NCBI RefSeq assembly: GCF_003254565.1
Contig: NZ_QJRI01000181.1
Coordinates: forward strand, 186,001 to 250,000
Source of the DNA: Flavobacterium nitrogenifigens
GTDB lineage: Bacteria; Bacteroidota; Bacteroidia; Flavobacteriales; Flavobacteriaceae
Length of the DNA stretch: 64,000 bases
Reading direction: 5' to 3'
The notes under the pieces were generated by a model that saw only the letters and a program-made list of their open reading frames with translations, had not been told where the DNA came from and did no database searches. The position numbers were made by a program, and so were the translations under genes. Below are positions 9,154 to 19,223 of the stretch, one piece after another (position 1 is the first letter of the stretch; the number at the start of each line of letters is the position of its first letter).

Positions 9154-10143
9154 TTATTTCTTTATTGTTTCTGCCTTAAAAATGTCGGCAAGTAAATGAT
9201 CTAATTGTTTGTACTCGATTAAAAAAGCGTCATGTCCGTGAACCGAATCAATTTCGCTATAGAAAACATTGTCTTTAAACTTCTTCAATTCTTCGTAGGT
9301 TTCTACATTTTCTTTTGCTGTAAAAAACAAATCTGAATTGATTCCGACAATATGAATTGAAGCTTTTGTTTTAGACATTAAGTTTTCAAAACTTTCACTA
9401 TTTCTAGTAATATCAATTGTTTTAAGCAACTGATTCATCAATTTATAAGAAGACAACTGAAATCTTTTCTGCAATTTTTTTCCGTGATGCGCCAGCCAGC
9501 TTTCGATATTAAAAATCAAAAGATCTTGATTGATCGTACGCTGGAATTTCTCTTTGAAAGATTCTGGCGAACGGTAACAAAGCATGGCGTGAATTCGAGC
9601 ATCTTCGATTGGTTTTGAAGAATTATTTAGAATTTGCTCTTGCAAAAAGCAATTTGCAATAAGCCAATCAGTAGATTTCCAATCACTCGCAATTGGAATA
9701 AGGTTTTCAGTAATATTTGGTGCTAATGCCAAGATTTCCCACGCAATTCCGCCTCCGACAGAACCTCCGATAACAGCAAAAAGCTTTTCGATTTGTAAAG
9801 CTTTAATTCCTTCAATAAAGATTCTTGCAACATCTCTAGCAGTAAAATCATGGTAATTGTCGATTAAGAAAGAGTTGCTTCCGTTTCCAGGAATATCAAA
9901 GGCTAAAACAGTATAAACAGCAGTATCAATGGTTTTACCTTCGCCAATCAAGTCATTCCACCAGCCATTTTCGCCAGTCACCTGCGAATTTCCAGTTAAA
10001 GCATGATTAACCAAAACAATAGGCGCGCTGTGCAAAGGCTGCCCTGCAAGCGTAAAACTTAATGGTATAGAATGATAAGTTGCACCACTTTCTGTGATGA
10101 AATCTTGAATTATAATGGGATTTGGTATATTTTCCAATTTCAA
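9154..10143 (-). CDS. metX: Homoserine O-acyltransferase-like alpha/beta hydrolase
   Basis: A 329-residue alpha/beta-fold acyltransferase that acylates homoserine, the first committed step to methionine. The nucleophile elbow is GGSVGG with S128. The acidic residue lies in GINSDLFF and the catalytic His in VHGHDAFLIE, matching the MetX pattern (Y-G-H-D-A-F-L). It is somewhat shorter than the usual 350-380 residues. The start codon seems to be TTG (10141-10143); no in-frame ATG is close. A SAM-I riboswitch lies 73 bases upstream and thrA follows after one base. Acetyl versus succinyl donor cannot be decided. Confidence 0.87.
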   Translation of the reverse strand: MKLENIPNPIIIQDFITESGATYHSIPLSFTLAGQPLHSAPIVLVNHALTGNSQVTGENGWWNDLIGEGKTIDTAVYTVLAFDIPGNGSNSFLIDNYHDFTARDVARIFIEGIKALQIEKLFAVIGGSVGGGIAWEILALAPNITENLIPIASDWKSTDWLIANCFLQEQILNNSSKPIEDARIHAMLCYRSPESFKEKFQRTINQDLLIFNIESWLAHHGKKLQKRFQLSSYKLMNQLLKTIDITRNSESFENLMSKTKASIHIVGINSDLFFTAKENVETYEELKKFKDNVFYSEIDSVHGHDAFLIEYKQLDHLLADIFKAETIKK

Positions 10144-10216
10144 ATCTATTGTATTATTGACTTGTATATGGAAATATTAGAAAGAAAAACTAGGTTTAAC
10201 TAGAAAAAATCTTGTT

Positions 10217-10320
10217 GTTATCTTTCCACGTTTGGCGTGGTAGAATGTAGCACCTTCTTCGTTTTACCGAAGGGTTGCTAAGGCTTCATCGGGTCTAATC
10301 CCTCGTCCTTTCTTTATAAC
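10217..10320 (-). ncRNA. SAM-I (S-box) riboswitch upstream of metX
   Basis: Minus-strand sequence has the S-box core in order: GUUAUAAAGAAAGG (P1 5' side), GAGGGAUUAGACCCGAUGAA, GCCUUAGCAACC, a short P3 region, AAGGUGCUA, CUACC, a P4 hairpin (CCACG/CGUGG) and the closing GGAAAGAUAAC. P1 pairs GUUAU with AUAAC. It represses Met genes when S-adenosylmethionine is abundant. No terminator hairpin with a U-run is obvious between it and the metX TTG, so control may be at translation initiation (inference). Confidence 0.93.
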
Positions 10321-10350
10321 ATTTCAATATTTGTTTGAACTTAACGAGTG

Positions 10351-10382
10351 CAAATTAACTACTATTTTCTCTAACAAACAAA
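10351..10382 (-). promoter_or_regulatory. Promoter of the SAM-riboswitch/metX transcript
   Basis: The minus strand shows TTTG (10379-10382), 20 bases, then TTAATTTG (10351-10358), one base off TAnnTTTG. The start would be about 25 bases before the riboswitch, so metX has its own promoter separate from the attenuated transcript upstream. The remainder of the 10144-10513 gap holds only the riboswitch and a short AGGGTTTACCCT palindrome near 10480. Confidence 0.55.
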
Positions 10383-10513
10383 TTTTATCTAAAAGTGTTT
10401 GTTAAATTTCTGAGACTTACTTTAGCAAAAACTATTATACGCAAAAATTTACCGAACAAAAATGCCCAGTAAAATTAAGCAGGGTTTACCCTAGTTTATG
10501 ATACTTTTTCCGT

Positions 10514-10732
10514 TTAGATAAAAAGCGTTTCATTTTCTTTTGAATACATCAAAAACAATAAAGAGTTGGGTGCTTTTTTCTCAGCTGCTTTCCCTTCCTC
10601 TGTGATTCCAGCCTCTGTTATTCCGAATCTTGGATGAGCTAATTCGTTTGTTGGTGGCGGCGGATTATTTTTTCTAGTCCTTCTGTTTTTCAAATCTGAA
10701 ATTTTTTCTGCTAAGTAGTTCAATGTGCTCAT
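10514..10732 (-). CDS. Small hypothetical protein behind tandem attenuators
   Basis: A 72-residue ORF with no family I recognise. It has a basic, Pro-rich N-terminal half (KNRRTRKNNPPPP), a GITEAGITEEGK repeat-like centre and a C-terminal SLLFLMYSKENETLF. No signal peptide or membrane segment. It is the first ORF after two consecutive leader peptide/terminator units, in the same relative place as the 64-residue ORF at 14046-14240, which also ends with an SLLF-x-x-Y stretch. That parallel, rather than homology to known proteins, is the main reason to call it real. Confidence 0.55.
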   Translation of the reverse strand: MSTLNYLAEKISDLKNRRTRKNNPPPPTNELAHPRFGITEAGITEEGKAAEKKAPNSLLFLMYSKENETLFI

Positions 10733-10810
10733 GATATTAAGTTTTAGTTAAGTTGTGTTTTATAATCTTTATTTCTCGTTTATCTTTTTGTTAATTCATT
10801 TTCTGGAATA

Positions 10811-10848
10811 AAAAAACCCTTTTGGATTTTTAGATACCAAAAGGGTTT
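10811..10848 (-). terminator. Attenuator terminator B
   Basis: Twelve-base stem AAACCCTTTTGG/CCAAAAGGGTTT followed on the minus strand by seven T. It lies 30 bases after the stop of leader peptide B. The minus-strand segment AUACUAAAAG (10870-10879), which begins at the leader stop codon, can pair over ten positions (one G-U) with CUUUUGGUAU of the 5' arm, giving an antiterminator. Confidence 0.8.
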
Positions 10849-10878
10849 AAGTTTTTACACTCATATATACTTTTAGTA

Positions 10879-10944
10879 TCAACAGACGTATGCGCAAATA
10901 AGCGCGACAGTAAACATCTTGTTCATCTGTAAGGATTTATTCAT
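10879..10944 (-). CDS. Leader peptide B (Met/Cys)
   Basis: A 21-codon ORF too short for ordinary gene calling. It has Met at 1, 7 and 10 and Cys at 17 and 21, with TGT as the last sense codon before TGA. The QMNKMF stretch parallels VNKMF in leader A just upstream, so the two are probably duplicates. It is followed by terminator B and an overlapping antiterminator segment. Inferred role: ribosome stalling at Cys or Met codons under starvation exposes the antiterminator and lets transcription continue into the 72-residue ORF. Confidence 0.6.
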   Translation of the reverse strand: MNKSLQMNKMFTVALICAYVC

Positions 10945-10990
10945 CTGTGATTTATATTGTATTTTATTTAAATTCTGCATTTGTTGTAAA

Positions 10991-11026
10991 TTAAAAAGCC
11001 TCCTAAATATTTCTTAGGAGGCTCTT
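10991..11026 (-). terminator. Attenuator terminator A
   Basis: Ten-base stem AGCCTCCTAA/TTAGGAGGCT, then TTTTTAA on the minus strand. It lies about 35 bases after the stop of leader peptide A. GAGGCU inside the leader ORF (11076-11081) is complementary to the AGCCUC of the 5' arm, and the same leader segment can instead pair upstream (UCGGU/ACCGA), the classic 1:2, 2:3, 3:4 arrangement. Confidence 0.8.
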
Positions 11027-11057
11027 ACTATATTATTATTGTATTCTTACAATTTTT

Positions 11058-11129
11058 TTAAGCAATAGACACCCCAGCCTCGGTCTTAACCGAAATGGCA
11101 CAAAACATTTTGTTGACTTTTAAGTTCAT
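11058..11129 (-). CDS. Leader peptide A (Met/Cys)
   Basis: A 23-codon ORF, ATG at 11127-11129, with the control-type codons Met8 and Cys10 in NKMFCAIS and a tail KTEAGVSIA whose codons form the pairing segments. A longer in-frame reading back to 11243 exists but would run across the predicted promoter. Together with terminator A it forms the first of two attenuators in series. The remaining gap up to 11371 holds the promoter and AT-rich sequence. Confidence 0.6.
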   Translation of the reverse strand: MNLKVNKMFCAISVKTEAGVSIA

Positions 11130-11156
11130 TTGATTTCTAGTAGTTTTTGGGTATAA

Positions 11157-11188
11157 CAAATATGCAAATATTTTTTTTATTACACAAA
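11157..11188 (-). promoter_or_regulatory. Promoter candidate for the tandem leaders
   Basis: Minus strand TTTG, 20 bases, CATATTTG. The spacing is identical to that of the promoters ahead of leaders C and D, including an A-run in the spacer. The predicted start is about 20 bases before the leader A ATG. Confidence 0.45.
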
Positions 11189-11371
11189 TTAAAATCAAGA
11201 ATTTAATTACAAAATTCGTTGAAAATGTGTTTTTTAACGTCAAAAAACATCTTACAAAAACGAAAACGAAATAATAGAGGTAAAAAACTTACAAAACAAG
11301 CTTGTTTTTCTTAATAATTCCATTTGACAAATCAGTTTATCAAAGAACCTTTTTCTTTTTTTTCTAAAAAA

Positions 11372-12460
11372 TTACAGCCAAACAGCTTCCTTCGTCCTAA
11401 TTCGCTCGACAATTTTCAGAATATCGGTTATAATTCCTCTCGAAATTGCTTGTTTACATGGCGGAGCACTCTGAATTACAATCGGAATATCAGCGTAAGA
11501 TTTAGTATAAATTTCAAAAATAGTGTCAGAACCTTTCAATTGTCCAATTGGAGAAGCTGCTGGTTCTGAAATTAATTTGGTTTCTAAAGTGTCTTTTTCT
11601 AAATCAAATTCTCCTACATATCGAAGCACATGATTTTCTGCTTGAGTAATCTTGGCGATTTTAAAAGATTTATCGACAGCGTCTTTGTTCAATACGCCAT
11701 TTTTCTCCAAATGTTCTTCGGTTATAAATGGCTTAATTTTAATATCTGAAAACTCAAAATCTTTTCCTATTTCTCTGGCCAATATCAAAAGCTTTCTTGC
11801 CGTATCATTTCCTGAAAGGTCTTCTTTAAAATTTGATTTCATTAATCCCAAAAGGCTTGCGTCTTTTAAAACAGATGAAAAAGAAACTTCTTCTGATGAA
11901 AATCGATTAAAGACATAACTCAGATTATCCGAAAAAACGCCTCGAATCTTGGTGATTTTTTCTCCCGAATAGTACAAATCTCTTAAAGTCTGCAAAACAG
12001 GAATCCCAGTTTCAACCGATGTTTCATATAGAAACTCTTTGTCGTACTTTTTAAGATCTGCTCGCAGTTTTTTATACAAGTCAATCGGAAGCGTGTTGGC
12101 TTTTTTGTTTACTGCTACAATATTGAATCCGTTTTTAATTAACGTATTGTAATGTTTTACCAATTCATCGCTGGCTGTTGCGTCTACGGCAATCAAGTTT
12201 TCGAATTCATTTTCATGCGCAAATTCGACAATATCTTCTACTTTAAAAGGAACTGCCAATTGTCTGAAATTGGTTTCCCAAGAATAGCCTACACCTTCTT
12301 TTTCAAAAAAAGCAACCGTAGAATTGGTTATAATGGGAAAATGAAAATCGACATTTTTGCTTTCGAGAAAAAAATCCTGACTTTCAATAATCTGATTAAT
12401 CAAAGTACTTCCGATATTACCAATTCCGAAAAGAATAATGTTTATTTTAAGCTTTGACAT
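11372..12460 (-). CDS. Stand-alone homoserine dehydrogenase-like protein, possibly inactive
   Basis: A 362-residue protein matching only the dehydrogenase half of ThrA: NAD(P) loop FGIGNIGSTLINQI, VNKKANTLP, YETSVETGIPVL, EDLSGNDTARKLLILARE. Two conserved active-site stretches are altered: the TEPDPR motif that binds homoserine is replaced by LMKSNFK, and GVFSGTLSY reads GVFSDNLSY. The gene follows the MetY-type gene on the same strand, after a small repeat element. I place the start at the ATG 12458-12460; an ATG four codons upstream is possible. It could be a catalytically weak paralogue or a regulatory protein (inference). Confidence 0.82.
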   Translation of the reverse strand: MSKLKINIILFGIGNIGSTLINQIIESQDFFLESKNVDFHFPIITNSTVAFFEKEGVGYSWETNFRQLAVPFKVEDIVEFAHENEFENLIAVDATASDELVKHYNTLIKNGFNIVAVNKKANTLPIDLYKKLRADLKKYDKEFLYETSVETGIPVLQTLRDLYYSGEKITKIRGVFSDNLSYVFNRFSSEEVSFSSVLKDASLLGLMKSNFKEDLSGNDTARKLLILAREIGKDFEFSDIKIKPFITEEHLEKNGVLNKDAVDKSFKIAKITQAENHVLRYVGEFDLEKDTLETKLISEPAASPIGQLKGSDTIFEIYTKSYADIPIVIQSAPPCKQAISRGIITDILKIVERIRTKEAVWL

Positions 12461-12483
12461 AATTTCTAACATTTTAGTTTTTT

Positions 12484-12602
12484 AAAACCATATAAGTGAT
12501 GTAAGTTCATTTAATATTTTTTGCATCACAAAGCTAGACGCACTGCGGTGCGTCTCTACAGTGCGTCTCTACAAAATGCACTTATATTCCTTATATGGTT
12601 TA
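12484..12602. repeat. MITE-like inverted-repeat element
   Basis: About 119 bases bounded by inverted arms AACCATATAAGTGATGTAAGT and a ~20-base partner on the right with roughly three mismatches. Inside is a perfect smaller palindrome AGACGCAC-TGCG-GTGCGTCT and a 13-base direct repeat GTGCGTCTCTACA. No ORF. It lies between the MetY-type and HSD-like genes. The GC-rich core differs sharply from the AT-rich surroundings, as in REP or MITE elements. Confidence 0.6.
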
Positions 12603-12688
12603 AATTTTATAAAGATGCTTTTCATAAAAAATTACCTTTAGCAAAACCACTCGCTAAAGGCAATTTTTCAAACAAAAAACAAAAAAAC

Positions 12689-13993
12689 CTAATTTTTATT
12701 GATGCTGAATTGAGAAAGCGAAACGCTCTCAAAAACAGTTTGCAGATCTGCAATTAAATCTTCGATATCTTCAATTCCTACAGAAAGACGAATCAAATCT
12801 TTAGAAACTCCTGTTTCTATTTGTTCTGCTTCTGTCAATTGCTGGTGTGTTGTACTTGCTGGGTGAATAATCAGTGATTTTGTGTCACCAATATTCGCTA
12901 GCAGAGAGAATAATTTTGTGTCATCTACCACTTTTTTAGCCGCATCAAAACCTCCCTTTAATCCAAAAGTGATAATGCCGCTTTGCCCTTCAGGAAGATA
13001 TTCTTTAGCCAAAGCATTATATTTATTCGATTTTAGACCTGGATAATTTACCCAAACCACCTCATCTTGTTTTTCTAACCATTCAGCTAGAGCCAAAGCA
13101 TTTTCACTGTGTTTCTTGATTCGAATTGGAAGTGTTTCTAGTCCCTGAATAATCTGAAACGCATTAAATGGACTCAAAGCAGCACCAAAATCACGCAGTC
13201 CTTCAATTCGCGCTTTTGCAATAAAAGCTGCATTTCCTAAAGCTTCATGATATACTAATCCGTGGTATCCTGCAGATGGCTCGGTAAATTCTGGGAATTT
13301 TCCGTTTGCCCAATCAAAGTTTCCAGCATCAATGATAACGCCTCCTAATGAAGTTCCGTTTCCTGCGATATATTTTGTTAAGGAGTGAATTACAATATCG
13401 GCACCATATTTAATTGGGTTTAATAAATAAGGTGTCGCAACTGTATTGTCTACTATAAATGGTACTTTGAATGCTTTGGCTTCTGCCGAAATTGCTTTTA
13501 AATCTAGTACATCTAATTTTGGGTTTCCAAGAGACTCAACAAAGAAAGCTCTTGTATTTTCTTTTGCTGCTTTGGTAAAATTTTCAGGTTTTGAAGGATC
13601 TACAAATGTGGTAGTAATTCCTAATCTTGGCAAGGTAACTTTTAGAAGATTATAAGTTCCTCCGTATAAACTATTTGACGCTACGATATGATCTCCCGCT
13701 TTTAGCAAAGTCAATAAAGTTGTAGAAATTGCAGATGCTCCAGAAGCTGTTACTACTGCCCCAATTCCGCCTTCAAGTGCTGCAAGGCGCTGCTCTAAAA
13801 TGTCGTTTGTCGGGTTGTTTAATCTGGTGTAGATAAATCCAGCTTCAGCAAGACCAAATAAATTGGCAGCATGATCGGCGTTATTAAACACATATGATGA
13901 TGTCTGGTAAATTGGCACGGCTCTAGTTCCTGCGTTTTTAGTTACGTCGTGTCCTGCGTGTAATGCGTTTGTTGCAAATTTTTGTGTACTCAT
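12689..13993 (-). CDS. metY: O-acetylhomoserine sulfhydrylase, MetY type
   Basis: A 434-residue PLP enzyme that joins O-acetylhomoserine and sulfide to homocysteine. The PLP lysine is K207 in VIHSLTKYIAGNG; YTRLNNPTNDILEQR and SGASAISTTLL are the other cofactor contacts. The insertion around residues 225-260 (FPEFTEPSAGYHGL) and the length of about 430 are hallmarks of the MetY branch, separating it from the 390-residue enzyme at 4267-5439. The gene follows leader C, its terminator and a 64-residue ORF, so it is probably induced when Met/Cys-tRNA charging falls. Confidence 0.92.
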   Translation of the reverse strand: MSTQKFATNALHAGHDVTKNAGTRAVPIYQTSSYVFNNADHAANLFGLAEAGFIYTRLNNPTNDILEQRLAALEGGIGAVVTASGASAISTTLLTLLKAGDHIVASNSLYGGTYNLLKVTLPRLGITTTFVDPSKPENFTKAAKENTRAFFVESLGNPKLDVLDLKAISAEAKAFKVPFIVDNTVATPYLLNPIKYGADIVIHSLTKYIAGNGTSLGGVIIDAGNFDWANGKFPEFTEPSAGYHGLVYHEALGNAAFIAKARIEGLRDFGAALSPFNAFQIIQGLETLPIRIKKHSENALALAEWLEKQDEVVWVNYPGLKSNKYNALAKEYLPEGQSGIITFGLKGGFDAAKKVVDDTKLFSLLANIGDTKSLIIHPASTTHQQLTEAEQIETGVSKDLIRLSVGIEDIEDLIADLQTVFESVSLSQFSINKN

Positions 13994-14045
13994 GATTTCT
14001 TAGTTTTTTAGGTATTTTTAATACGTTTATATATTGTAATTGATT

Positions 14046-14240
14046 TTAATTTTTGAAATTGATTGAAGCTAAAATATCTTCAGCTTCTTCTTCAAGGTCA
14101 TATAAATGAAACAGTAATGATTTCTGCGTTTTTATATGCTGGGCAGGATCATATTTTGGAGTTTCAGTTGATGTCTCTTCCGAATTATTATTTCTTAATA
14201 AGTATTGAAATGCGATTGTATTTATATCTAGTGTATTCAT
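14046..14240 (-). CDS. Small hypothetical protein behind attenuator C
   Basis: A 64-residue acidic ORF of no recognised family. It reads as a helical N-terminus (DINTIAFQYLLRNN), an acidic linker and a C-terminal helix SLLFHLYDLEEEAEDILAS. No signal peptide. It lies between attenuator C and the MetY gene, in the position the 72-residue ORF holds behind attenuators A and B; both have an SLLF-x-x-Y segment. It may be a small regulator or assembly partner of the pathway (inference). Confidence 0.55.
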   Translation of the reverse strand: MNTLDINTIAFQYLLRNNNSEETSTETPKYDPAQHIKTQKSLLFHLYDLEEEAEDILASINFKN

Positions 14241-14265
14241 GATTTAAAATTTAAAATGTTGGAAA

Positions 14266-14302
14266 TAAAAAAAGCCCTTTCGGATGGCGACCAAAAGGGC
14301 TT
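14266..14302 (-). terminator. Attenuator terminator C
   Basis: Stem AAGCCCTTT/AAAGGGCTT with TTTTTTT following on the minus strand. It lies about 30 bases past the stop of leader C and 26 bases before the 64-residue ORF. CCAAAAG at the end of the leader (14336-14342) is complementary to CUUUUGG in the 5' arm (eight pairs with a G-U), a ready antiterminator. Confidence 0.85.
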
Positions 14303-14332
14303 ATAGTTTAACTATAACAAAGATTGTCTCTT

Positions 14333-14413
14333 TCACTTTTGGCAACAGCAAATTGGGATGCACATTTGCATCATCTTACAACACATCATATTTCCTTTTG
14401 CTATTGTTTTCAT
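14333..14413 (-). CDS. Leader peptide C, 6 Met and 6 Cys in 26 residues
   Basis: A 26-codon ORF starting at ATG 14411-14413. It contains Met at 1, 9, 10, 14, 15, 17 and Cys at 11, 12, 18, 22, 23, 24, so 12 of 26 codons are for sulfur amino acids. The core is NMMCCKMMQMC. The last Cys run and stop codon overlap the antiterminator segment. The layout is that of a his- or trp-type leader, here for Met and Cys. Downstream are a terminator, a small ORF and the MetY gene. No functional data; the inference rests on codon content and complementary segments. Confidence 0.75.
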   Translation of the reverse strand: MKTIAKGNMMCCKMMQMCIPICCCQK

Positions 14414-14467
14414 TTTGATTTAAAATTTGAATTCGACTATTTTTTAAATTCGACTAATTCGATAGAG

Positions 14468-14499
14468 TAAATGTAATAAGTATTTTTTTAACGACCAAA
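14468..14499 (-). promoter_or_regulatory. Promoter of leader C
   Basis: Minus strand TTTG, 20 bases, TACATTTA. The spacer begins GTCG and contains an A-run then TACTT, nearly the same as at the leader D promoter (17639-17670), so a shared factor or common origin is likely. The rest of the 14241-14578 gap holds leader C, its terminator and AT-rich sequence. Confidence 0.55.
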
Positions 14500-14578
14500 T
14501 TAAAATTGAAATTTTGTACTATTTTTTTGAAATTTCTTTCAAGCCTTTTAAATAAAGACTTGAAAGAAAATATTTTAA

Positions 14579-17425
14579 TTAAAATTTAAAGCTCAAACGG
14601 GCAAAACCAAATCTTCCGTTTAATCCGAATTGAGAAACTGCTCTTGAATACGCAAACTGATTCGCATTTGTTAAATCTGTACTTGGCGCTGGCGACAAAG
14701 TTGGCGTTGTGTTTGTAAAGGCAGGAGTTGCAGGATTATTTCTATCCGGATAAACATCTCCTATATTATTAACCCCAATTGTTGCTCTCAAATGCTCGTT
14801 GATCTGATATCCTAAAGATAAATCGGTAACCAATTTTGCGCTGTATTCTGGATGCTCGTACACAGAAGAAAATCCGTCTAGATTAACATCTGTTGCTCCT
14901 GGATCTGTAACTTTTCCGAAATAGCTGTTTCTTAAATAAATATCCAGTTTTTTAATATTGAAAGTTGTCATCAAATTGGCTTTCAATTTCGGAATAGCTT
15001 CTTCCAAATATACTCGACTTGATTCTGGAAAGAAAGAATAAATGTAAGGTTCTCCTCCAGCATTAACGATAGATTGCGGAATATGCAGATCTCCTACTCT
15101 TTTCGTTTCGTTAAAACTTAATGCAAAATCGTTTCTAATTGTAAAATCTTGAATTACATCATATTTCTGAGAAATCACCAAATCAATTCCTTTTGTTTCA
15201 GAATCGATTCCGTTTGTCCAAAACGAAGCTCTTTCTACTCCTTTCAAATCAAATGCTTGTTGAAATAAAGTCAACGCCTCTGCCTGTTCTGGCGAAGTTG
15301 CCGCTGCGATCTGTGCATCTGTTGGTCTTGAATATTGCCCAGACAGTACAATTCTGTCGTTTATTCTTGTAAAATAAGCATCAGTAGCAATGGTTATGTT
15401 AGCTTCAGGAATTTTGAATGTAAATCCTGTACTGATGCTTTTTGATTTTTCTGGTTTTAAACTTTCAATTCCAATGCTTTTTGCTGCTTGCGAATCGTTT
15501 GTAAAATAGCCAACTTGGTACGGAGCACCGTTTATAAACTGTGTTGAACTTGACTCAAAATATCTTTGCTGCAAAGAAGGCGCTCTGAAACCTGTCTGTC
15601 CAGAAATTCTCCAATTGATATTATCATTTAATTTTAAAAGCGAAGCCAGTTTAAACGTAACTGTATTTCCAAAATCTGAATAGTTTTCATAACGTGCCGC
15701 TCCATTTATAAGCCATTTTTCAGTGGCATTCAATTCTAAATCAACATAAGCTGCGCCACTTTTTCTGTCTTTTTCTTTAGCATCTGAAGGCTGAAATCCT
15801 GAAAATCCTTGCGCTCCCGCTCCACGCTTGTTTCCGAAGAAATCTGTTACAATTAATGGTGAATTGCTTGGCAAAATTCCTGAAACCAGATTTCCGTTTA
15901 CATCATATAATCCGTAAGAAGCTTCTTCTCCTGCTTTTATTTGATAGTTTTCATATCTGAATTCACCACCGAAAGCAACGTTCAGTCCAGCAAGAACATC
16001 GTATTTTCTGCTGAAATCTAAATTGGTCGTGCTTTGTAAAAAAGAAACTTTTCCAGCATCAAAACTAAATGGAGAATTCGTTCCTAAAGTTGCATTGATG
16101 GTATTATTTACATCATAGTTAAATGAGTTTGTTCCTAAGTTGGTACTTAAATCGGTATCGAACCCAAATAATTGTGTATTTATTCCAACTGCTCCAGAAG
16201 CATCCAAAATTTTTGATTCAATTTCTGGCAAGAATCCATTTTGGTACACTTGCGTGAAAGTTCCAGAACCGTTTGGCAGTCTATTAAATGCATATGATTT
16301 ACCACCTCTATAAGAAACACCTCCAAAAGAATACAATGAAGTTGTTTCGCTCAAAGGATATTTAGCATTAAAATACAATTGTCCCGCAGCCAATTCTGAC
16401 TGGCCAACACTCATATTATAATCACTTCTCTGCTGGCCTCTGTAAGCTAGTTCATTATTTGTAACATCAAAATTTAAAGCCGTCTGCATCTGTGCAATTG
16501 TTGAAGCCGATGCAATAGCGTTTTGCTGAGCTGGTGTAAAATAACTTACTTGCGGCGCATATTGTTTTAATGATGACAAAATCTGAGCTGAATTTGTAGT
16601 CGTATTAATATTGCTAAACAAAGAATTAATCTCTACTCCATCTTGCGCTGCTCTGTTTTCTACTGCATTGTAAGCATTAAAAATAGCATTGCTTCTAATT
16701 CCTGCTCTGCTTGTGGCTTGTCTAGTTACGGCAGTTCCTGTAATATTTAAGAAACTTCCTGGTTTGCCTAATGAAGTTCCGTAGTTTAAATCGATTTGGG
16801 CAGTTTGACCGTCTGCTCCTCCTTCAAAATTATTTGATTCAGAAGATAAATTTGCTCCATACTGAATTCCTCCGGTCAAATAATTAGCGTTTTTCTTTAA
16901 AACAATATTAATAACTCCCGCAATCGCATCAGAACCATATTGTGCGGCAGCTCCGTCTCTTAAAACTTCAATTCTTTCTATGGCAAAAGATGGAATTGCA
17001 TTTAAGTCTGTCCCGACAGATCCTCTACCTGGCGAACCGTTTATATTTACCAAAGCACTTGTATGTCTTCTTTTTCCGTTTACTAAAATTAAAACTTGAT
17101 CTGGCCCTAATCCTCTTAATTGTGCAGGATCAACGTGGTCTGTTGCATCTGCTGTAGAAGTTGGATTACTCGTAAATGAGGGAGCAACATAATTTAAAAT
17201 TTGAGTTACGCTAGTTTGCGGCGCTCCTTTTGTTATTTCTGATACGTTAAAAACATCAACCGGAACTGGCACGTCTGTTTTAACCCTGTTTTTACTTCTT
17301 GATCCAATAATAGTAACTTCAGACAGTTCGTTGTTTTTTAAACTGTCTTGCTCTTTTTTATTGTCTTGAGCATAAAGTCCTGAAAATGTCACAAGACCTA
17401 AAACGATTAGTACATTTTTCTTCAT
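14579..17425 (-). CDS. TonB-dependent receptor under Met/Cys attenuator
   Basis: A 948-residue outer-membrane receptor. N-terminal signal peptide (KNVLIVLGLVTFSGLYAQ), a plug domain at about 40-190 with QLRGLGPDQVLILVNGKRR and the plug-end box VEVLRDGAAAQYGSDAIAGVIN, then a beta-barrel ending in the typical aromatic FARLSFKF. It lacks the long CarboxypepD-like extension of SusC proteins. The substrate is not evident from the protein. It stands directly behind leader D and its terminator and near an operator-like motif shared with the cysH promoter, so import of a sulfur-containing compound is a reasonable inference. Confidence 0.9.
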   Translation of the reverse strand: MKKNVLIVLGLVTFSGLYAQDNKKEQDSLKNNELSEVTIIGSRSKNRVKTDVPVPVDVFNVSEITKGAPQTSVTQILNYVAPSFTSNPTSTADATDHVDPAQLRGLGPDQVLILVNGKRRHTSALVNINGSPGRGSVGTDLNAIPSFAIERIEVLRDGAAAQYGSDAIAGVINIVLKKNANYLTGGIQYGANLSSESNNFEGGADGQTAQIDLNYGTSLGKPGSFLNITGTAVTRQATSRAGIRSNAIFNAYNAVENRAAQDGVEINSLFSNINTTTNSAQILSSLKQYAPQVSYFTPAQQNAIASASTIAQMQTALNFDVTNNELAYRGQQRSDYNMSVGQSELAAGQLYFNAKYPLSETTSLYSFGGVSYRGGKSYAFNRLPNGSGTFTQVYQNGFLPEIESKILDASGAVGINTQLFGFDTDLSTNLGTNSFNYDVNNTINATLGTNSPFSFDAGKVSFLQSTTNLDFSRKYDVLAGLNVAFGGEFRYENYQIKAGEEASYGLYDVNGNLVSGILPSNSPLIVTDFFGNKRGAGAQGFSGFQPSDAKEKDRKSGAAYVDLELNATEKWLINGAARYENYSDFGNTVTFKLASLLKLNDNINWRISGQTGFRAPSLQQRYFESSSTQFINGAPYQVGYFTNDSQAAKSIGIESLKPEKSKSISTGFTFKIPEANITIATDAYFTRINDRIVLSGQYSRPTDAQIAAATSPEQAEALTLFQQAFDLKGVERASFWTNGIDSETKGIDLVISQKYDVIQDFTIRNDFALSFNETKRVGDLHIPQSIVNAGGEPYIYSFFPESSRVYLEEAIPKLKANLMTTFNIKKLDIYLRNSYFGKVTDPGATDVNLDGFSSVYEHPEYSAKLVTDLSLGYQINEHLRATIGVNNIGDVYPDRNNPATPAFTNTTPTLSPAPSTDLTNANQFAYSRAVSQFGLNGRFGFARLSFKF

Positions 17426-17490
17426 TTCTTCTTTACTGATTAATTATTGTTTTTGGCTTAAAAAAAATCTTACAGGTTTCATTTTGACAT

Positions 17491-17521
17491 AAAAAAAACC
17501 TCTGCGGTTCGGCAGAGGTTC
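17491..17521 (-). terminator. Attenuator terminator D
   Basis: Stem AACCTCTGC/GCAGAGGTT with a short loop and eight T on the minus strand, 65 bases before the receptor ATG. GCAGAG within leader D (17559-17564) is complementary to CUCUGC of the 5' arm, and the same leader segment can pair upstream as CGGA-AUUA-UCCG, again a 1:2/2:3/3:4 arrangement. Confidence 0.85.
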
Positions 17522-17546
17522 TATTTATATTTTTATTGAAAAATAA

Positions 17547-17615
17547 TTACAATAGTGTCTCTGCGGATAATTCCGGCATCTTACAAGACATCATATTGCA
17601 AACTGTAAATTTCAT
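17547..17615 (-). CDS. Leader peptide D (Met/Cys)
   Basis: A 22-codon ORF, ATG 17613-17615. Control codons cluster at Cys6, Met8, Met9, Cys11 and Met13 in VCNMMSCKMP, followed by a nine-residue tail whose codons carry the antiterminator segment. The core NMM(S/C)CKM is shared with leader C, so they are likely related. It precedes terminator D and the TonB receptor. A ribosome held at the Cys/Met codons would free the pairing segment, which is correctly placed about 4-10 codons further on. Confidence 0.72.
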   Translation of the reverse strand: MKFTVCNMMSCKMPELSAETLL

Positions 17616-17638
17616 TTGTTTCTTTTGTTTTAACGGGG

Positions 17639-17670
17639 CAAAGTTGCGAAGTATTTTTTAATCGACCAAA
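17639..17670 (-). promoter_or_regulatory. Promoter of leader D/receptor transcript
   Basis: Minus strand TTTG, 20 bases, CAACTTTG. The spacer matches the leader C promoter in its GTCG start, A-run and TACTT end. The predicted start is about 20 bases before the leader ATG. Confidence 0.55.
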
Positions 17671-17688
17671 CAAAAAACAAAATATTTT

Positions 17689-17711
17689 CTATTACCCTAT
17701 CAAAATAGTAT
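17689..17711. promoter_or_regulatory. Second copy of the TauE-cysH operator motif
   Basis: Shares the exact 13-mer CTATTACCCTATC and an inner TACTA half with the site at 1421-1443 (about 18 of 23 positions). It sits about 19 bases upstream of the -33 box of leader D, unlike the first copy, which is downstream of its -7 box. Candidate Rrf2 site (inference). Confidence 0.4.
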
Positions 17712-17789: not shown

Positions 17790-17800
17790 CACCCGAAATA

Positions 17801-17934
17801 GAGGAAAAATTTGAACTGATTGCAACCTCTTCATAATGAAATGATTTCGTTATGAATGCTGAGAAATTAATTTCAGCAGTAAAAAATGCTAAAGCAGATA
17901 CTCTCCTTTAGCCCTTTTTAGCAATCATTTCCTC
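17801..17934 (+). ncRNA. Candidate cis-regulatory RNA upstream of metK
   Basis: A closed multi-branch fold can be drawn by hand. The outer stem is GAGGAAA (17801-17807) with UUUCCUC (17928-17934), stacked on UGAUUGC (17817-17823) with GCAAUCA (17921-17927) across a nine-base one-sided bulge. It encloses three hairpins: 17830-17856, 17857-17878 and 17888-17912 (GCUAAAG/CUUUAGC). The last is followed by CCUUUUU, so it could act as a weak terminator exclusive with the closing stem. GCAACC and UGCUAAA recall the SAM-I clan, but the S-box core is absent. Position before metK suggests a SAM-responsive element; class unassigned. Confidence 0.55.
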
Positions 17935-17972: not shown

Positions 17973-19223
17973 ATGGCTTATTTATTTACGTCAGAATCTG
18001 TTAGTGAAGGGCATCCAGACAAAGTTGCAGATCAAATTTCGGATGCATTAATTGACAACTTTTTGGCATTTGACGCTGACTCAAAAGTAGCTTGTGAAAC
18101 ATTAGTTACAACTGGTCAGGTTATTTTAGCAGGTGAAGTAAAATCGAATACTTATCTTGATGTTCAGCAAATTGCACGTGAAGTAATCCGTAAAATTGGA
18201 TATACTAAAAGTGAATATATGTTTGAAGCGAATTCTTGTGGAATTCTTTCAGCTATTCATGAGCAATCTGCAGATATTAACCAAGGTGTTGACAGAGCTA
18301 AGCCAGAAGAGCAAGGTGCAGGTGACCAAGGAATGATGTTTGGTTACGCTACAAACGAAACTGAAAACTTCATGCCATTGGCATTAGATTTATCTCATAA
18401 ATTATTACAAGAGTTAGCAATTTTAAGACGTGAAAACAAAGAAATCACGTATTTACGTCCAGATGCTAAATCTCAAGTTACATTAGAATATAGCGATGAT
18501 AACAAACCAACTCGTATTGATGCGATTGTTATCTCAACTCAGCATGATGATTTTGATGAAGAAGCTGCAATGTTGGCTAAAATCAAAAAAGACATTATCG
18601 AAATCTTGATTCCTAGAATTATCGCTAAAAACCCAGAGCACGCTCACTTATTTAACGATAAAATCAACTACCATATTAACCCAACAGGAAAATTCGTTAT
18701 TGGAGGACCTCACGGAGATACTGGTTTAACAGGAAGAAAAATTATCGTGGATACTTACGGTGGAAAAGGTGCTCACGGTGGTGGTGCATTCTCTGGAAAA
18801 GATCCAAGTAAAGTAGATAGAAGTGCTGCTTATGCAACTCGTCATATCGCTAAAAACTTAGTTGCTGCTGGTGTTGCTGACGAAATCTTAGTTCAGGTTT
18901 CTTACGCAATTGGAGTTGCTGAGCCAATGGGAATTTTCATTGAAACTTACGGAACTTCTAAAGTAAACTTAACTAACGGTGAAATCGCTAAAAAAGTAGA
19001 AGCTATCTTTGATATGCGTCCTTACTTTATCGAACAACGTTTGAAATTAAGAAACCCTATTTACAGTGAAACTGCTGCATACGGACACATGGGACGTAAA
19101 CCAGAAACTGTAACTAAAACTTTCTCTGCTCCAGGCGGAAACGAAAAAACAGTTACTGTTGAGTTGTTTACATGGGAAAAACTTGATTTTGTTGACCAAG
19201 TAAAAGCTGCATTTGGATTGTAA
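17973..19223 (+). CDS. metK: S-adenosylmethionine synthetase
   Basis: A 416-residue methionine adenosyltransferase making SAM from methionine and ATP in the cytoplasm. Signatures: [16 protein letters not shown] near the N-terminus (ATP-binding His/Asp), [12 protein letters not shown] around residue 110 and the phosphate-binding [25 protein letters not shown] around residue 260. Length is slightly above the usual ~385-400. Its product is the ligand of the riboswitch in front of metX, so this gene closes the regulatory loop of the region. It is monocistronic with a strong terminator. Confidence 0.98.

Follow-up and report, generated by a model that had tools for sequence, protein, structure and literature searches.

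Tandem Met/Cys-Rich Leader Peptides as Putative Transcription Attenuators of Sulfur Amino-Acid Genes in Flavobacteriaceae

Introduction

Leader-peptide attenuation is textbook knowledge for His, Trp, Leu, Thr/Ile, and Phe. In the E. coli leaders thrL, trpL, and hisL, a short open reading frame (ORF) with repeated codons for the end product is combined with an antiterminator that a stalled ribosome exposes and with an intrinsic terminator. Methionine genes are mainly known for SAM riboswitches, repressors, and T-boxes. Methionine also poses a difficulty for a sensor that has to be translated, because a shortage of it blocks initiation as well.

Related systems have been described before. For Flavobacterium psychrophilum, Guerin et al. 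(2021; PMC9723704) reported, in general terms, clues for leader-peptide attenuation before amino-acid operons. Among conserved 5′ elements, the main text of this study mentions pheA and hisG, and the word methionine does not occur in it; Table S7 and SI Appendix D9, which may list the metY locus, were outside that check. The species belongs to the same genus as the organism examined here, and its metY locus is part of the present set (L045). Vitreschak et al. (2004) reportedly predicted attenuators also in Bacteroidetes, together with a Thr/Ile/Met leader in Pasteurellales. In Mycobacterium and other Actinobacteria, leaders with runs of Cys codons precede cys genes (PMC1262725), and Canestrari et al. 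(2020) describe, according to their title, actinobacterial cysteine leader peptides as Cys-responsive. The leaders in PMC1262725 contain Cys runs only, adjoining the stop codon, and no terminator hairpin was found for them. The main text of a survey of premature terminators (PMC2965389) mentions neither Bacteroidetes nor flavobacteria. In the open-access full texts that we searched, neither a Met+Cys leader nor a Met leader is described in Bacteroidota; subscription papers were not covered.

The locus described here shares the build of thrL, trpL, and hisL, but its leaders use Met and Cys instead of Thr/Ile, Trp, or His codons, two modules stand in tandem, the antiterminator strand lies inside the leader ORF, and there is no clear protector hairpin. 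From the actinobacterial Cys leaders it differs by the combination of Met with Cys, by intrinsic terminators, and by a covarying antiterminator. SAM-I and SAM-II riboswitches serve the same genes, and in 24 of 80 loci one of them takes up this position upstream of metY; unlike the Met/Cys leaders, they sense SAM directly and without an ORF. As far as an open-access search can establish, the Met/Cys specificity, the tandem build, the exchange with SAM riboswitches, and the fit between codon content and pathway are new.

Results

Four Leader Modules near metY and metX

The window, by which we mean the whole stretch of 64,000 nucleotides from Flavobacterium nitrogenifigens that was analyzed, contains four leader modules on its minus strand: A before a TonB-dependent receptor gene, B before metY, and a fainter pair, D and C, before metX. 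All features below lie on this strand unless stated otherwise. The ORF of leader B (MKTIAKGNMMCCKMMQMCIPICCCQK and a stop codon, 14333–14413) has 26 codons, of which six are Met (start included) and six are Cys. Its last codons form the antiterminator strand GCCAAAAG (14336–14343), in which CCAAAAG (14342–14336) is complementary to the 5′ arm CUUUUGG (14297–14291) of an intrinsic terminator with 12 pairs and a U run (14272–14302). This terminator begins 30 nt past the ORF. A preliminary description of the locus had named this ORF, the terminator, and the complementarity, and all of them held; its picture of a single leader before metY has to be corrected, since B is one of four modules and A, C, and D were not listed.

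None of 2000 dinucleotide shuffles matched the 11 non-start Met and Cys codons of leader B, and the B region folds better than 200 of 200 shuffles (z −4.64), mostly because of the terminator. The ORF is kept in relatives: codons 11, 12, 14, 15, 17, and 18, all Met or Cys, specify the same amino acid in 30 of 30 aligned orthologues of 26 codons. Downstream follow a small ORF of 64 amino acids (14046–14240), metY (12689–13993), and a homoserine dehydrogenase-like gene (11372–12472). The metY product, an O-acetylhomoserine/O-acetylserine sulfhydrylase (TIGR01326, E 5.9e-195), is 99% identical to MetY of F. anhuiense.

The ORF of leader A (MKFTVCNMMSCKMPELSAETLL and a stop codon, 17547–17615) contains the antiterminator strand GCAGAG (17559–17564), which is complementary to the 5′ arm CUCUGC (17517–17512) of a terminator with a U run (AACCUCUGCCGAACCGCAGAGGUU, 17491–17520); strand and terminator are both supported by covariation (see below). 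The TonB-dependent receptor gene (14579–17425) lies between A and B. Relatives without this intervening gene carry A and B in tandem, 30–250 nt apart, in front of metY. A TonB-dependent receptor behind leader A splits the two modules in some Flavobacterium, and because this receptor stands under the predicted control of leader A, it is possible that it imports a sulfur or methionine source.

The D and C pair is followed by a small ORF, a SAM-I riboswitch (10215–10322), and a metX-like homoserine acyltransferase gene (9154–10143). Leader D (MNLKVNKMFCAISVKTEAGVSIA and a stop codon, 11058–11129) is A-like and poor in Met and Cys; the GCCUCC arm of its terminator region (10993–11024) is complementary to GAGGC in the ORF. 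Leader C (MNKSLQMNKMFTVALICAYVC and a stop codon, 10879–10944; longer if it starts at the in-frame ATG at 10980) ends with GAUACUAAAAG, which is complementary to the 5′ arm CUUUUGGUAUC of a terminator with a U run (10810–10847). To search for related elements we used two covariance models, R1 from the A elements and R2 from the B elements of relatives. Leader D, which was not in the training set of R1, matched this model with 35.4 bits (E 7.9e-5) within the window; genome-wide, its E value was 0.0067 and it ranked third, below one ordinary gene-end terminator. Leader C, not in the training set of R2, reached 54.8 bits (E 7.1e-8 genome-wide). Dinucleotide shuffles as rich in Met and Cys codons occurred in 4 of 2000 cases for A, 8 of 2000 for C, and 156 of 2000 for D, so that codon content by itself does not set D apart. 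Leaders resembling D precede metX in other genomes (for example L226–L228). With two leader attenuators and a SAM-I riboswitch in series before metX (10215–11129), two kinds of RNA sensor may possibly act on one gene.

When both strands of the window were scanned for Met/Cys-rich ORFs with a terminator behind them, two places were returned, B and A; a looser scan added C and three unrelated ORFs. Modules A–D gave no Rfam match at the gathering score, the best sub-threshold match being OmrA-B on the terminator of A (26.1 bits, gathering score 40). Even when E values up to 1 were allowed, Rfam gave no riboswitch match between 10780 and 17700, the SAM aptamer models (RF00162 and RF01726) before metY included. 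Of the riboswitches that the window does contain, one precedes metX and the other the divergent metK (plus strand, 17973–19223), this second one being of the SAM-II type (plus strand, 17795–17902). The small ORF behind C (10514–10732, about 72 amino acids) was read by eye. It shares with the one behind B (14240–14046) the C-terminal pattern SLLF.(M/L)Y...E, and a Pfam search found no match for the 64-residue ORF or for a relative of the longer one.

Distribution of the Leaders

Comparison of loci shows that the leaders are conserved. Among 80 named metY loci, which are those nearest to the MetY of the window and not a random sample, 56 contain at least one strict leader element upstream of metY; 25 of these 56 contain two within 950 nt, and 24 loci contain none. 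We also examined all 71 metY loci that were found in 69 of 121 sampled genomes of the genus. A leader with terminator precedes metY in 69 of them, 63 by the strict scan and six more (A element) by model R1. For the other two (L152 and L157), neither a leader nor a SAM riboswitch was found upstream.

Matches to R1 occur in 88 of the 121 genomes of the genus (E ≤ 0.001), with a weak tail that includes false matches. In the family sample, R1 matched 31 of 299 genomes and 24 of 236 genera (E ≤ 1e-4), and metY or metX was present in 25 of 29 loci examined. The phylum sample gave matches in 17 of 296 genomes, 16 of which belong to the same genus. The one match from another family (L222) lacks both a Met/Cys-rich leader and a met gene and was counted as false; diverged members may escape this search with R1. 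Model R2 matched 68 of 299 family-sample genomes (E ≤ 0.001). A strict leader was found at the match in 16 of 28 such loci (L179–L206) and in none of the remaining 12, and therefore 68 of 299 overstates the spread.

In the own genome, R1 and R2 found nothing convincing beyond the modules of the window: L123, L132, L133, L134, L137, and other matches beside these modules are gene-end terminators or overlap coding sequence. Forty stretches from weak or second matches were also inspected; L301, L302, and L304–L309 contain no leader pair. Six elements that were spurious or had a terminator more than 60 nt from the ORF were excluded, as was the spurious locus L254. As part of the attenuation reading, we consider it very likely that a family of such elements, often in tandem, controls sulfur amino-acid genes in Flavobacteriaceae; the evidence for this is comparative, and regulation is inferred.

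SAM Riboswitches at the Same Place

Each of the 24 named loci that lack a leader carries a SAM riboswitch immediately upstream of metY (23 SAM-I, one SAM-II). An Rfam scan of 12 leader loci detected no SAM riboswitch before metY, and a SAM-I core pattern recovers all 23 SAM-I loci but none of the 56 leader loci, so that the two kinds never overlap in the 80 loci. On a MetY tree of these loci, the leader and SAM states require one change (bootstrap 1–3, support 73/76). We read these loci and this tree as the replacement of one RNA sensor by another in front of the same gene.

Pairing and Covariation

For A, covariation clearly supports an alternative antiterminator formed with the terminator's 5′ arm; for B the evidence is weaker. 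The A alignment (A3) contains 60 of 79 listed elements, with close copies, early-ending ORFs, the divergent L207 pair, and the L055 cysE leader excluded. Between the ORF and the terminator 5′ arm, 88.9% of cells are paired, versus 80.9% after shuffling, and 27 cells are changed on both sides versus 4.6 in shuffles, a number that 0 of 500 shuffles reached. Slid versions of the helix are 28–50% paired. In Christiangramia and Salegentibacter, for example, an A-U pair is replaced by C-G. One of the seven pairs (column 22–84) is unpaired in 37 of 60 elements. The A terminator is 99.4% paired in the same 60 elements, with 59 doubly changed cells and double changes in six of eight pairs. For B, 15 pair positions were analyzed (97 of 165 elements); three exceed all 300 shuffles, and the rest do not or do not vary. 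In a test of own versus swapped arms, the own arm was favored in 66 of 68 A elements and in only 89 of 123 B elements. Single antiterminator helices are short, and on average 8–9% of shuffled leaders pair equally well.

The motif CCGCAG is present in 70 of 89 unique A elements, read as.CC GCA G in 42 and as CCG CAG in 27. Since it is read in two frames, it must be kept as RNA and not as peptide. In the B leaders L032 and L043 a frameshift turns the peptide end CCCQK into LLLPK, and the RNA is kept. The RNA shows little conservation beyond the two helices, with a mean column identity of 68% in alignment A1 and of 40% in the B alignment A4 (six rows misplaced by wrong coordinates; excluded from counts).

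Codon Position and Folding of the Nascent RNA

In A, the control codons are placed such that a stalled ribosome would leave the antiterminator strand exposed and one at the stop codon would cover it; in B this is true of the upstream codons, but the last Cys codons do not fit. In 88 unique A elements, Met or Cys occupies the three codons nearest to the strand in 0, 2, and 3 cases, the fourth codon in 32, and the fifth in 85, continuing to about the twelfth. The Met/Cys codons of these elements end 11–12 nt before the strand (median gap 12 nt). This gap is roughly how far the leading edge of a ribosome lies ahead of its A-site codon. These rows share descent and are not independent. In B elements, Met and Cys occur 4–14 codons upstream and dip at codons 2–3. 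They also fall on the antiterminator strand, to some extent because its sequence, UUGCCAAAAG, itself encodes Cys; a distance of 9 nt or less between a Met/Cys codon and the strand is found in 93 of 131 B elements.

We folded the nascent RNA with the ribosome footprint masked. For B of the window the antiterminator probability is 0.93–0.996 when the ribosome stalls at codons 9–18 and 0 at the stop codon; a ribosome at codons 22–24 hides the antiterminator, and the three late Cys codons of B are therefore too close. The corresponding values for A of the window are 0.97–0.99 and 0. For a stall at the last of the upstream Met/Cys codons, 88 A elements have a median probability of 1.00 and 131 B elements one of 0.97; these values fall to 0.42 and 0.28 at the stop codon, and the difference between the two states exceeds 0.5 in 58 of 88 A and 98 of 131 B elements. 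As a control, trpL was folded correctly (0.05 without ribosome, 0.55–0.64 stalled, 0.05 at the stop codon), thrL partly so, and hisL wrongly at the stop codon (0.66). Full-length RNA at equilibrium favored the terminator in every state (≥0.88). Since the terminator is the stable state from the synthesis of its 3′ arm onward, the switch has to work kinetically, during transcription.

In the absence of a ribosome the median antiterminator probability is 0.58 for A and 0.89 for B, versus 0.05 for trpL. These folding calculations identified no clear protector hairpin, and the nascent RNA without ribosome tends to the antiterminator, above all in B. They give no more than a hint that untranslated leaders may read through.

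Codon Content and Downstream Genes

Elements of the same build precede cysH-cysD (with cysN assigned by eye), cysE-cysK, metH, metX, and a cystathionine-lyase-like gene, and also TonB receptor genes and operons with an OsmC-like gene. With NCBIfam, cysH and cysD reach the cut-offs, cysE and a metH fragment score strongly but below cut-off, and the lyase-like gene reaches none. The codon content follows the pathway: leaders are Cys-rich before cys genes and nearly Cys-free before metH and the lyase-like gene. Counting codons before the antiterminator, the Cys share is 0.43–0.83 before cysH and cysE (nine elements), 0–0.12 before metH and the lyase-like gene (five elements), and 0.12–0.60 before metX and metY (19 elements). 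The first two groups differ with a Mann–Whitney p of 0.0015, and the same p was obtained for either comparison. Duplicates and elements with fewer than three Met and Cys codons before the antiterminator were excluded, and elements linked to HSD, OsmC-like, or ABC genes, with Cys shares from 0 to 0.83, were kept outside of the test. Genome G090 contains both extremes, a cysH leader with two Met and four Cys codons and a lyase-like-gene leader with seven Met and no Cys. Lineage also has an effect, as several metY leaders from the genus Flavobacterium are nearly Cys-free (L172–L177).

Several further elements were observed. Some related leader pairs (L272, L282–L285, L287–L289, L291, L297, L299, L300, L313, L314) are poorer in Met/Cys and contain numerous codons for Trp, Tyr, His, and Thr; they lie before genes of the OsmC-like, homoserine-dehydrogenase-like, metH, or oligopeptide-type ABC kind. 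In L207 (minus strand, about 1136–870), divergent tandem Met/Cys-rich leaders (MKNNRQNNMNKMRNMMCCKHYLWNELA and MKTLHHNEMCHKSCRCMKMRLCCC) precede an EamA-family transporter gene; the stem sequences of this pair differ and the complementarity is the same. In L280 (genome G062), a nirB-type nitrite reductase gene is preceded by an A-like leader, MKIIANNRCKMMLDYSAGMLL. The own genome (G000:C129, near 173.9 kb) contains an ORF with eight Ile among 19 codons, MTNFNNIIIAIISIIAIQQ, followed by a terminator (L128, minus strand, from 1627). This ORF precedes a threonine dehydratase-like gene (L120, judged by eye) and is likely an Ile leader, which suggests that this genome employs attenuation for further amino acids as well.

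Discussion

We consider it very likely, based on comparative evidence and without an experiment, that module B works as a ribosome-mediated transcription attenuator with charged tRNA-Met and charged tRNA-Cys as its signals. With ample Met and Cys, the ribosome would reach the end of the leader ORF and cover the antiterminator strand (CCAAAAG in B, GCAGAG in A); the terminator would then form and transcription would stop. With Met or Cys in short supply, the ribosome would stall on the upstream Met/Cys codons. The strand, left free, would pair with the terminator's 5′ arm, and RNA polymerase would continue into metY (B) or the TonB receptor gene (A). The leader, its terminator and the complementary strand, their conservation and covariation, the codon positions, and the genes controlled are shown by sequence and comparison. 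Leader translation, stalling, termination and read-through in the cell, and the response to Met and Cys are inferred.

The proposal of the preliminary description that his/trp-type attenuation is applied here to Met and Cys is thereby supported as to its sequence features, with translation and amino-acid response remaining inferences. It had set conservation of the ORF and the pairing in relatives as a test, and both are conserved (leader in 56 of 80 named and 69 of 71 genus metY loci); the covarying antiterminator pairs that it proposed to look for are clear in A and weaker in B. The combined Met+Cys specificity held only in part: Met codons are always present, and Cys codons vary with lineage and downstream gene. 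That it knew of no described Met+Cys leader in Flavobacteria agrees with the open-access literature searched.

A first alternative would be a ligand-binding riboswitch for SAM, Met, or another metabolite, next to which the ORF is incidental. The genes are indeed SAM riboswitch targets, and SAM-I or SAM-II occupies the same place in relatives. Against this stand the absence of any Rfam riboswitch match in 10780–17700, the poor conservation of RNA outside the helices, and the preservation of Met/Cys content, distance to the antiterminator, and pathway fit; we regard this explanation as very unlikely. Similarly improbable is nascent-peptide arrest, in which the ribosome is halted by the peptide itself, acting jointly with Met, SAM, or another metabolite. 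The TnaC peptide, which arrests the ribosome with tryptophan, is the model for this alternative. Arrest would yield the same RNA switch, and richness in Met and Cys could reflect binding residues, but between genera the peptides keep their composition and not their sequence, and an RNA read in two frames at the ORF end is hardly compatible with an arrest peptide. We can all but exclude a small Cys/Met-rich peptide with its own function, such as metal binding: a short Cys-rich ORF with its own terminator would fit, but leaders of several lineages, and those before metH and the lyase-like gene, lack Cys, and neither the complementarity to the terminator nor the codon-free gap would be explained. 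Chance, that is, an ordinary terminator after an oddly composed ORF, draws some support from ordinary gene-end terminators that score 20–36 bits in the R1 and R2 searches of the own genome; it is contradicted for A and B by the shuffles (0 of 2000 for B), conservation, and covariation, is thus all but excluded, and remains possible for D alone.

Returning to attenuation, a bolder version would comprise a family-wide regulon in which tandem attenuators take the place of SAM riboswitches, the Met:Cys ratio is tuned to each operon branch, and the logic is default-on. We consider this version possible but less likely than not. Since no hairpin would force termination of an untranslated leader, stalling at Met codons and failed initiation for lack of fMet-tRNA would, under this bolder version, both switch the genes on.

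Conclusions

Both kinds of RNA control occur at the same place before metY in sister genera, and one can therefore ask what is gained by sensing charged tRNA rather than SAM. For annotation, any gene behind such a leader pair, for example the TonB receptor, becomes a candidate for a role in sulfur amino-acid supply. The Met/Cys leader system also makes the question of blocked initiation testable for methionine. If true, default-on logic would solve the peculiar problem of this amino acid, the shortage of which also stops initiation on its own sensor.
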